A DNA stretch of 64,000 bases from Alphaproteobacteria bacterium (GTDB lineage: Bacteria; Pseudomonadota; Alphaproteobacteria; Sphingomonadales; Sphingomonadaceae), in the NCBI GenBank assembly GCA_005883305.1, contig VBAC01000001.1, positions 992,001 through 1,056,000 of the forward strand. Reading direction: 5' to 3'. The notes beneath the pieces were generated by a model. It made no database searches, was not told the origin of the DNA, and was given only the letters and a program-made list of their open reading frames with translations. Below, one piece after another: positions 56,457 through 59,671 of this stretch (its first letter is position 1; each line of letters starts with the position of its first letter). The position numbers and the translations under genes were made by a program.

Positions 56457-58484
56457 ATGGCGAAGACGAACACGGCGGAAACGGAAGAGAAGACGGAAGG
56501 CGGCGACGCCCCGCTCATCGACCTCAACGAAGCCTCCCTCAAGAAGCTGATGGCCCGCGCCAAGAAGCGCGGCTACATCACCTATGACGAGATCAACGAG
56601 GCCCTGCCGCAGGACCAGATGTCCTCCGAGCAGATCGAGGACGTGATGTCGGCGTTTTCGGAGATGGGGGTCAACATCGTCGAGAACGAGGAGGCGGACG
56701 AGGACGACGGGCCGGCGGAGCCGGACGGCGGGCTCGACGAGACCGGCGACGGGGTCGAGACGTTCGTGCTCGAGAAGAAGAAGGAAACGGTCGACCGCAC
56801 CGACGATCCCGTCCGCATGTATTTGCGCGAGATGGGCGCGGTCGAGCTTCTCAGCCGCGAGGGCGAGATCGCCATCGCCAAGCGCATCGAGGCCGGCCGC
56901 GACACGATGATCTGGGGCCTGTGCGAGAGCCCGATCACCTTCAACGCGATCATCGAATGGTCGAACGCGCTCAACAACGGCCACATGCAGCTGCGCGAGA
57001 TCCTCGATCTCGAGGCGATGCTCTCCAAGGGGCCGACCGCCGAGCAGGTCGAGGGCGCCGAGGAGGACGGCGACGGCACCATCTCGGAAAGCACCGCGGG
57101 CCCCACCTTCAAGGAGGAAGAGGAGCCCGAGGAGGCCCCCGCCGAGGTCGACGAGGACGAGGAGAATTTGCTCGAGCGGCGCGCCCAGCGCCCGGTCGAG
57201 GAGGAGGACGAGGACAACACGCTCTCGCTCGCCCAGATGGAGGAGACGCTCAAGCCCGCCGCGCTCGAAAAGTTCGCGGCGATCACCGACCTCTACAAGA
57301 AATTCTCGAAGCTCCAGGTGGCGCGGATGGACGCGATGAGCGCCGGCGCCGATTATCCCCCGGCCGACGAGCGCAAATATCACCGGCTCTCCGAGCAGCT
57401 CACCGCCGAGGTCGAGAGCGTCCAGTTCCACGGCGCGAAGATCGAATATCTCGTCGACCAGCTCTACAGCTACAATAGGCGCCTGACGACGCTCGGCGGC
57501 CAGATGCTCCGCCTCGCCGAGCGCCACAAGGTGCCGCGCCGGGCCTTCCTCGAAGCCTATATGGGCCACGAGCTCGACGAGGGCTGGGCCGAGCGGGTCT
57601 GCGGAATCGACCGGAAATGGACCGCCTTCTGCGAGGCCGAGCGCGGCGCGATCGAGCGCATCCGCGCCGAGATCGCCGAGATCGCCCAGGCGACCGGAAT
57701 GAGCCTCGGCGAGTTCCGCCGGATCGTCAACCAGGTCCAGAAAGGCGAGCGCGAGGCGCGGATCGCCAAGAAGGAGATGGTCGAGGCGAACCTTCGCCTG
57801 GTCATCTCGATCGCCAAGAAATACACCAACCGCGGCCTTCAGTTCCTGGACCTGATCCAGGAGGGCAATATCGGCCTGATGAAGGCGGTCGACAAGTTCG
57901 AATATCGCCGCGGCTACAAGTTCTCGACCTACGCGACGTGGTGGATCCGCCAGGCGATCACGCGGAGCATCGCCGACCAGGCCCGCACGATCCGAATCCC
58001 GGTGCACATGATCGAGACGATCAACAAGCTGGTTCGGACCAGCCGCCAGATCCTCCACGAGATCGGCCGCGAGCCGACCCCCGAGGAGCTGGCCGAGCGC
58101 CTCTCCATGCCCTTGGAGAAGGTCCGCAAGGTGATGAAGATCGCCAAGGAGCCGATCAGCCTCGAGACGCCGATCGGCGACGAGGAGGACAGCCACCTCG
58201 GCGACTTCATCGAGGACAAGAATGCGGTGATCCCGGTGGATGCCGCGATCCAGGCCAATTTGAAGGAGACGGTGACCCGGGTGCTGGCGAGCCTGACGCC
58301 GCGCGAGGAGCGCGTGCTTCGGATGCGGTTCGGCATCGGCATGAACACCGATCACACGCTGGAGGAGGTCGGGCAGCAATTCTCGGTGACGCGCGAGCGT
58401 ATTCGGCAGATCGAGGCGAAGGCCTTGCGCAAGCTCAAGCACCCCTCGCGTTCGAGGAAAATGCGGAGCTTCCTGGATCAGTAA
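56457..58484 (+). CDS. rpoD: Primary sigma factor RpoD (sigma-70)
   Basis: This is the housekeeping sigma subunit of RNA polymerase. The 675-residue protein has region 1.1 ([20 protein letters not shown]), a large acidic non-conserved region (about 80-270), region 2 ([20 protein letters not shown] and [15 protein letters not shown]), region 3 and region 4 with the -35 helix ([19 protein letters not shown]). The last 60 codons are copied, whole or in part, three times downstream. It follows dnaG as in the classical macromolecular synthesis operon. Confidence 0.97.
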
Positions 58485-58512
58485 GGCTCGTCTTGGCCTG
58501 ACCCTCGGCGCG

Positions 58513-58953
58513 ATGCTTTTCGCGGCCGCGCCGACTTGGGCTCAGGAAAGCGAGCTACCGGCCGATCTGGTTGAACAGATGGCGGCGCTCGCGCGCGAAG
58601 CCCTGCCGATGGCCCGACTTGAAGATGGATCGAATGTCCCGCCTGAAACCGAGGCCGAACGGTCCCGGCCGATCGTGCCACGAGCGCTCGAAGCACAGAC
58701 GATCGAGCGCGGCATATTGACCGGCCGGATGGCGTATTGCGGGCTGGACTGGCAGAACCTCAGCTACCTGCCCTACATGCAGGCCCTTCGCCGGCGCTAC
58801 CGGGGCAAGCCGATGGCCTTTGTCGGCCTTCTCCATGGAATCAGCCAGGAATGGACGACGGCGGCGATGGAGCAAGACCACGATGTGTGCACCGACGAGA
58901 TGCGCACGAGGCTGACCGCCGAAGCCGCCGGGCGCCGGATCGATGTCCCGTAG
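58513..58953 (+). CDS. Small exported protein of unknown function
   Basis: The 146-residue call starts at ATG 58513 (MLFAAAPTWAQES), giving a short signal-like segment. The frame stays open upstream (LTLGA before Met), so a non-ATG start could lengthen the signal. The mature part has two Cys residues (MAYCGLDWQ, HDVCTDEM) and an aromatic-rich centre (LSYLPYMQALRRRYRGK). I do not recognise it. It sits between the rpoD stop and the first copied rpoD tail. Confidence 0.6.
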   Translation: MLFAAAPTWAQESELPADLVEQMAALAREALPMARLEDGSNVPPETEAERSRPIVPRALEAQTIERGILTGRMAYCGLDWQNLSYLPYMQALRRRYRGKPMAFVGLLHGISQEWTTAAMEQDHDVCTDEMRTRLTAEAAGRRIDVP

Positions 58954-58956
58954 GAG

Positions 58957-59031
58957 GATCGAGGCGAAGGCGCTGAGAAGCTGAGGCATCCGAGCCGGTC
59001 GCGGAAGATGCACAGCTTTTTGGACCAATAG
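58957..59031 (+). pseudogene. rpoD: Copied rpoD 3' end, fragment A (frameshifted)
   Basis: The sequence matches the last 25 or so codons of rpoD: IEAKAL, then after a small deletion, [18 protein letters not shown] and a TAG. The frame breaks after GCGCTG, where bases are missing. It follows the stop of the small exported protein gene by 3 bp. Confidence 0.85.
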
Positions 59032-59037
59032 GCTTTT

Positions 59038-59134
59038 CTTTGCGTCTTAGCGTCTTTGCGTGAGATAACCTCTTGAGTTCGGGCCTGCGGTGAGATCGGT
59101 TGTCGGTCTCACGCGAAGCCGCGAAGGCGCAAAG
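59038..59134. repeat. 28-bp imperfect inverted repeat
   Basis: Arms 59038-59065 and 59107-59134 pair over 28 bp with four mismatches (ends CTTTGCG and GCGTGAGA). The arm composition is related to the inner arms of the element at 20461-20611, so both probably belong to one family of mobile palindromes. The right arm abuts the ribosome site of the next gene. Confidence 0.65.
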
Positions 59135-59143
59135 GAGGGAAGG

Positions 59144-59314
59144 ATGGCAGGCGATGATTATCCGACTGAAGAAATGCTGAGGCGCGTTCGGGTCGGGTTC
59201 AATCTGCCGACCGGAATGGTGGCGCGGCTCGATCGCGAGGCGAAGCGGCGCGGCGTCACGCGCCAGGCGCTGATCACGATGTGGCTGAGCGACCGGCTGG
59301 ACCGGGCGGCGTGA
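59144..59314 (+). CDS. Small ribbon-helix-helix (CopG-like) protein
   Basis: The 56-residue protein starts at ATG 59144 after an AGGAGG site. [20 protein letters not shown] followed by [20 protein letters not shown] is the CopG/Arc pattern of a beta strand plus two helices, typical of antitoxins and small repressors. No toxin gene lies beside it, so it is an orphan antitoxin or regulator. Its stop overlaps the start of rpoD fragment B. Confidence 0.7.
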
Positions 59315-59498
59315 GCGCGAGGAGCGCGTGCTTCGGATGCGGTTTGGGATCGGGATGAACACCGATCACACGCTCGAGGAGGTCGGGCAGCAATTCTCGG
59401 TGACGAGGGAGCGGATCCGGCAGATTGAAGCCAAAGCCTTGCGCAAGCTCAAGCACCCTTCGCGCAGCCGAAAGATGCGCTCCTTCCTCGATCAGTGA
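59315..59498 (+). pseudogene. rpoD: Copied rpoD 3' end, fragment B (intact frame)
   Basis: This copies the last 60 codons of rpoD plus a stop. It runs from [18 protein letters not shown] to RKMRSFLDQ and encodes exactly the residues of the complete gene. Nucleotide differences fall at synonymous positions (for example GGC/GGG, CGC/AGG, GGC/GCC-type changes). Such a pattern means it was once the end of a working rpoD, not a random decaying copy. Confidence 0.88.
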
Positions 59499-59509
59499 CC
59501 GAGCGCAGC

Positions 59510-59526
59510 GGCTGCCGGGGGCAGCC
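59510..59526 (+). terminator. GC-rich hairpin after rpoD fragment B
   Basis: GGCTGCC (59510-59516), loop GGG, then GGCAGCC (59520-59526) form a perfect 7-bp stem 11 bp after the fragment B stop. There is no T-run. It could be the original rpoD terminator that moved with the gene end. Confidence 0.45.
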
Positions 59527-59556
59527 CTGAGCACTTCACGCAAGGCTCTTCCGCTT

Positions 59557-59671
59557 GTCGAGGCCAAGGCGTTGCGGATGCGGCACGCGCAGCCAGTCCG
59601 GGGGACTGGCGAGCATGACGCAGGAGCATCCGTCACGGTCGCGGAAGATGCTGAGCTTCTGGGATCAATGA
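59557..59671 (+). pseudogene. rpoD: Copied rpoD 3' end, fragment C (interrupted)
   Basis: Bases 59557-59577 encode VEAKALR as in rpoD. An insertion of about 47 bp with a 7-bp hairpin (59592-59608) follows. Bases 59625-59671 then encode [15 protein letters not shown] and a TGA. Non-synonymous changes (LSFW for RSFL) show relaxed selection, so this is probably the oldest of the three copies. Confidence 0.75.

Follow-up and report, generated by a model that had tools for sequence, protein, structure and literature searches.

The subject of this study is a 64,000-nucleotide (nt) stretch of contig VBAC01000001.1 from an alphaproteobacterium of the Sphingomonadaceae (GenBank assembly GCA_005883305.1, positions 992,001 to 1,056,000), here called the window, in which the intact rpoD gene is followed by three displaced copies of its own 3' end. 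We consider it probable that these copies are scars left when recombination with divergent homologous DNA displaced the 3' end of rpoD, time after time and without an integrase, and that the same has happened at pyrG, at a GST gene and at a MoxR-like gene. Because similar scars lie behind these other conserved genes, this looks like a general recombination process rather than the work of a dedicated element targeting rpoD.

The rpoD gene (56457 to 58484, forward strand, 675 amino acids) carries its current functional end in its last ~183 nt. Behind it, all in the same orientation, lie a first cargo gene, displaced end A (58958 to 59031, forward strand, frameshifted by the loss of one base and beginning 4 nt past the stop of cargo 1), a second cargo gene, displaced end B (59315 to 59498, forward strand, 60 codons and a stop) and displaced end C (59558 to 59671, forward strand, interrupted by about 40 nt), and then an Mrr-type nuclease gene. 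A stop codon terminates each of A, B and C. The original prediction of three extra rpoD ends was thus confirmed, with the start of A corrected to 58958 and the span of C to 59558 to 59671. B aligned with the live end over 182 nt at 87% identity (E 1e-60 to 2e-58), A was matched by nhmmer (E 7e-15) and blastn (E 6e-7 to 9e-5), and C by nhmmer (E 5e-8). A search of the whole source genome returned four strong matches to the rpoD end, namely rpoD, B, A and C, and two weak matches elsewhere, at 574.8 kb (E 5e-4, within a 320-residue open reading frame, ORF) and at 1590 kb (E 8.5e-4). The sequences after the displaced copies in this genome are unlike one another.

Translated, B is identical (100%) to the last 60 residues of RpoD, plus the stop. 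Its 25 nt differences from the live end affect 20 of the 61 codons (stop included, a TAA/TGA change being counted among the synonymous ones), and none changes an amino acid. Because of this, we read B as a former functional gene end and not as a local copy left to drift, which supports what had been proposed from the window. Synonymous-only differences were also found in the two displaced pyrG ends that were compared, t2 (11 nt) and t4 (13 nt). To gauge drift, half the observed nt differences were placed at random in 5000 runs and the resulting amino-acid changes were counted. For B, t2 and t4, so few changes arose in at most 0.02% of runs; for B the mean was 8.8 changed residues, and zero changes was never reached. 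Drift was also rejected (P 0.003) for one displaced rpoD end of a related genome (G007, t1945), which has eight synonymous changes and one amino-acid change among nine changed codons.

Extra rpoD ends occur in three of the 25 genomes with an rpoD end in our genus sample of 26: the source genome (three), G007 (five, one of them weak, E 0.002) and G017 (one). In an rpoD tree, from which G017 was left out as its contig begins within rpoD, G007 grouped with G011 and the source genome with G025, so that the source genome and G007 are not sisters. Variable cargo behind rpoD in related genomes, which had been suggested as a check, was found: between live and displaced ends G007 carries a DUF2059 protein gene (PF09832, E 1e-6) and a 111-residue ORF, and G017 a lipoprotein-like 221-residue ORF. 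A relative of the G007 DUF2059 gene stands directly after rpoD (156 nt, 72%) in G024, which lies elsewhere in the tree and for which 584 nt of sequence after rpoD were covered. The displaced ends start at about -265, -183, -157, -90 and -48 nt, with four near -77. Going by the number of matches per genome, we saw no further local extra rpoD end among 397 genomes of the family, of which 13 belong to the genus and 392 have an rpoD match, or among 389 genomes of the class (368 with a match), under the stricter filters used for all runs on more than 40 genomes, which short decayed ends could escape and in which contig edges can hide cases. Second rpoD matches elsewhere in these genomes were RpoD-like paralogues with long open frames, or distant or other-contig hits, and were rejected as displaced ends, as was a second match in G116, a contig split with a 68-nt overlap.

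Several further observations concern the surroundings of rpoD. One of 108 loci scanned, from an uncultured Rhodobacteraceae (L165), has a decayed rpoD piece (11467 to 11531) ~200 nt behind rpoD. G161 carries, at contig edges, two rpoD 3'-end alleles that differ from each other (L088:1-235 and L089:1-160), representing either a displaced end or a strain mixture. In G012 a reverse transcriptase gene (PF00078, E 1e-11; L064:16772-18238, forward strand) lies directly behind rpoD on the opposite strand to it. rpoD and the MoxR-like gene are 1-10 kb apart in 16 of the 24 genus genomes examined; in the source genome they are 123 kb apart on the same strand (C1:1050484 and 1173636). Genomes of the genus differ in how far the next conserved gene lies from rpoD, but the gap beyond the MoxR-like gene varies too, and for this reason the variable rpoD gap was not taken as proof of a hotspot.

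Comparable footprints were sought behind other genes. In the source genome, each 3' end of 1313 called genes (1.646 Mb) was compared with the 6 kb downstream, giving 30 rows, of which those at rpoD (5), pyrG (3) and the GST gene (1) were kept and one at nadC/nadA was set apart. After filtering, displaced ends were accepted at three genes: rpoD (three), pyrG (four) and the GST gene (one). The pyrG gene, a CTP synthase by Pfam (1081747 to 1083384 of the source genome, reverse strand), has its four displaced ends packed into about 550 nt, and a repeat ending TCGAAGGA precedes each of them. Among the 25 genus genomes, displaced pyrG ends were found in the source genome only (searched within 1.5 kb; 787 nt in G024). 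The GST gene (441844 to 442530) has one displaced end of ~89 nt at 91% identity, and its spacer consists of the beginning of a second allele of the following gene, which is what import of homologous DNA should leave. A separate scan of 104 stretches (1453 gene ends, the G007 and G017 stretches beginning within rpoD) gave seven rows, with displaced ends accepted only at the window rpoD and at a MoxR-like AAA ATPase gene in G025, where a decayed end lies 1.4 kb downstream, 31 nt behind an exported-looking 384-residue ORF.

The remaining rows of the source-genome scan were called gene ends at the copy, paralogues (a TPR pair, a RadC pair) or REP (repetitive extragenic palindromic)-like sequence, not each inspected singly. 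Discarded from the 104-stretch scan were a TPR pair, a near-identical repeat in L143 and a 21-nt row in L079; candidate rows in L170, L080, L124 and L078 were by eye not displaced ends. Separately, a nadC 3' end is fused directly behind nadA, 2.4 kb before the intact nadC (C1:658980-662330 of the source genome), and two tandem exported TPR-type paralogues, named by eye, at 31463 to 34044 of the window (reverse strand) are similar in their C-terminal 60 residues. A type IIG-like restriction-methylase gene (N6_Mtase, Eco57I; L180:2013-5090, reverse strand) comes after the four displaced pyrG ends.

We propose that DNA of a related strain, carrying an rpoD end and whatever came after it, would recombine into the chromosome. 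One joint would form by homology in the conserved rpoD coding sequence, leaving the gene intact with the donor's end; the other would form within the resident rpoD end, with no long stretch of homology, and the last 75-183 nt of that end would be left behind. Repetition would yield the order rpoD, cargo 1, A, cargo 2, B, C, with the oldest end outermost, and the same process would act on pyrG, the GST gene and the G025 MoxR-like gene. The order of events, the identity of the donors, the one-sided joint and the vehicle, which may be transformation, a transfer agent or a circle, are inferred. The variable inner joint fits homology-facilitated illegitimate recombination, and identity comparisons did not locate the homologous joint upstream in rpoD. 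Of the original prediction, that foreign DNA had arrived repeatedly at the rpoD end, repeated displacement in the proposed order stands as the simplest reading. The part that made the rpoD end the special site of an integrating element is not supported: pyrG, the GST gene and the G025 MoxR-like gene bear the same footprint, start points vary, the nearest Phage_integrase match is 287 kb from the array, and no intact element was seen in the family and class samples.

Several observations weigh against recombinational displacement as we propose it. Three or more ends at one gene are not predicted by rare random events, and four of the nine displaced rpoD ends begin near the same IEAK codons. Cargo ORFs stop at most 37 nt before a displaced end at six of 15 junctions (0, 3, 4, 17, 31 and 36 nt), a closeness that 8% of random points show (P 7e-4, post hoc) and that joints placed at random do not account for. 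The codon record is also mixed. The G017 end has 20 synonymous and six amino-acid codon changes (six of 26 changed codons), although drift was rejected (P 0.0008). Two G007 ends, t1305 (12 synonymous and five amino-acid changes, 5/17; drift P 0.09) and t1756 (five and four, 4/9; P 0.82), and the GST end (six and two, 2/8; P 0.27) also carry amino-acid changes, and for these drift was not rejected; local copying or later decay may account for them. No donor allele or joint microhomology was established. A scan for displaced 5' heads gave 27 rows, none convincing beyond a 23-nt parE-like case and not each followed up, and the 104-stretch scan gave two longer candidate head matches, in L079 (85 nt) and L095 (118 nt). 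Finally, the last 265 nt of the G007 rpoD are 0.87-0.91 identical to G011 and the stretch just before them 0.97-0.99, but identity between the two ranges from 0.82 to 0.99 along the gene. When the identity drop in the last 270 nt was compared across 24 genomes, that of the source genome was the largest, by little, and G007 was no outlier, so that such a drop is at most a weak sign of a foreign live end.

Some phages insert in the 3' ends of coding genes. By analogy, elements with a site-specific recombinase could have recognised the 3' codons of rpoD and restored its end, later losing the recombinase and most of their cargo and leaving attachment-site scars. The shared IEAK start of four ends would suit such an origin, as would one gene hit repeatedly with variable cargo. 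So would the distribution of extra ends (3/25 genus genomes, 0/379 other family genomes with an rpoD match; Fisher P 2e-4, post hoc and with stricter filters for the family). However, the remaining ends begin at different places, and a further recombinase would be needed for each of pyrG, the GST gene and the MoxR-like gene. Searches for the machinery did not favour this explanation either. Phage_integrase matches in the source genome lie only at 762.9, 1422 and 1548 kb, the nearest 287 kb from the array at 1050 kb (tyrosine type; serine recombinases were not searched genome-wide), in agreement with the absence of an integrase noted from the sequence, and the contigs that carry rpoD in G007 and G017 have no such match. 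No intact element flanked by rpoD-end repeats was seen in the family and class samples, and an exact-pattern scan of viral contigs for the rpoD end found none. Among plasmid and phage records matching the rpoD end (40 of 142 and 37 of 37 looked at, respectively), the annotated matches were rpoD or sigma-factor genes, with a few marked "none" or hypothetical; the two Klebsiella phage records examined carry full-length host rpoD as a flank, and a tRNA-Met separates it from the phage genes. Ends that begin at varying positions and in four genes, with no Phage_integrase match within 287 kb of the rpoD array of the source genome, do not suit a single-site integrase, and we regard site-specific integration as unlikely.

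A more speculative idea, which we think doubtful, is that the units of a cargo gene and a 5'-truncated housekeeping end are integrase-free gene cassettes, circles entering by homologous recombination in the shared 3' end. It is an equally long shot that the conserved end of rpoD, pyrG and the like would there take the role of the attC sites of integrons. Such cassettes would account for cargo stops near displaced ends, for stacks at the same genes and for cargo that changes. For Rhs genes a circular intermediate has been proposed (PMC2935791); by analogy, one at these loci could explain both the stacking at one gene and the proximity of cargo stops.

Insertion with long target duplication, a pattern for which Nobusato 2000 is reportedly the source quoted, would make the displaced ends duplicated target, driven by restriction-modification or other defence genes. 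In later papers (PMC1643837, PMC3031569, PMC4978471), long direct repeats of resident sequence are described beside inserted genes, with restriction genes near. By raw count, four of our six loci have a restriction or nuclease-type gene among the three genes that follow the array, and at two of them it is the very next gene. In the source genome these are the Mrr gene next to the rpoD array and the type IIG-like N6 methylase gene next to the pyrG array (PADLOC 1e-30); in G007 a P-loop protein is followed by an HSDR_N protein, and in G017 a nucleotidyltransferase and a 213-residue protein are followed by an HNH-like protein. However, these genes lie outside the outermost displaced end, none of them between copies; most of the cargo found there consists of small exported-looking ORFs, and no defence gene was seen by eye, with no dedicated search, at the G025 MoxR-like or GST locus. 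Unlike the repeats described in those sources, ours are divergent alleles, several deep. We find this explanation improbable.

That the rpoD end was duplicated locally in tandem and its copies then drifted appears very unlikely. Every copy is local and in the same orientation, the stretches following two of the G007 ends resemble each other, and the amino-acid changes in G007 t1305, t1756 and the GST end are compatible with drift. It does not fit B, because the divergence of B is synonymous, as is that of pyrG t2 and t4, and the sequences after the copies in the source genome differ. A single tandem duplication, with copies closest to this allele and no variable cargo, had been named as the outcome that would overturn the prediction; for B it is refuted, unless B is under selection in place. 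An assembly artefact or strain mixture is scarcely credible: G007 and G017 are drafts, and G161 and G116 show contig-edge effects, but the source assembly has three contigs, both arrays lie inside the same 2.65-Mb contig, and arrays occur in three assemblies.

The cargo and the genes beyond the array were also annotated. Cargo 1 (58513 to 58953, forward strand) is a 146-residue ORF with, by eye, a signal-peptide-like start; it has no Pfam match, and no relatives were found in the searched genome contigs or plasmids. Cargo 2 (59144 to 59314, forward strand) would encode a CopG/ribbon-helix-helix-like protein (PF12441, E 0.0017; PF01402, E 0.0033; both below cut-off); by eye its most plausible start is the ATG at 59144, and its stop directly abuts B. 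The Mrr-type restriction endonuclease-like gene (59836 to 60810, forward strand; PF04471, E 6e-11) begins 164 nt past the array. Beyond it, on the reverse strand, are genes for a nucleotidyltransferase-like protein (60854 to 61150; PF18765, E 0.0015, below cut-off), a 211-residue protein without Pfam match (61147 to 61782) and an HNH-type nuclease-like protein (61782 to 62540; Pfam HNH just below cut-off; PADLOC PDC-M68A 6e-28, SAVED/HNH effector models from 5e-26). The three have relatives behind the G017 rpoD array at 33%, 49% (at the same place) and 65%, respectively, so that a common block stands behind rpoD in the source genome (60854 to 62540) and G017 (L042:1531-3182). In both, a terminase-like gene lies beyond this block.

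Minimal mobile elements of Neisseria vary in gene content between conserved genes through recombination in the flanks and carry no mobility genes. The rpoD locus resembles them in this mobility-gene-free turnover, and displaced ends of the flanking genes are not part of that concept as we know it. By analogy, the closest known systems are the C-terminal displacement of Rhs genes and the displacement seen in type VI secretion system (T6SS) clusters of Vibrio cholerae. In Rhs genes (Jackson et al. 2009, PMC2935791), a new 3' end takes the place of the old one, which moves downstream, so that dissociated ends accumulate in arrays; the authors propose that imported DNA recombines homologously by way of circles. 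At rpoD and pyrG old 3' ends likewise stand downstream, in the same orientation and in arrays. Unlike Rhs as described there, the gene is a housekeeping gene without a variable tip, and the residues encoded by the old ends are identical or almost identical to those of the new one. The rpoD case is thus not a member of Rhs displacement, but seems to work like one. For the orphan immunity arrays of the V. cholerae T6SS, Kirchberger et al. (2017, PMC5361080) describe sequential insertions with homology on one side that push older pieces downstream, and propose homology-facilitated illegitimate recombination. Retained immunity genes may be useful there, whereas no selected product is evident for displaced rpoD ends. 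In that type of recombination one joint is homologous and the other illegitimate (PMC3240628, PMC2884548). Experiments and dimorphic loci have revealed it, and these two sources, as far as consulted, do not describe multi-layer scars at essential genes.

An open-access search for published reports of rpoD as an integration site gave nothing relevant, which is not proof of absence in print. As far as our literature searches go, the footprint appears new in occurring at essential housekeeping genes, with the protein unchanged, in several layers and at more than one gene per genome. If our reading is correct, the ends of essential housekeeping genes, rpoD included, would be repeatedly swapped between relatives and would serve as anchors for adding genes without a mobility gene. 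Because the scars are countable, they would provide a measure of one-sided recombination in genomes, and searches for displaced ends are applicable to all genomes. Such scars could explain some of the local gene turnover beside conserved genes that is now put down to unknown elements.

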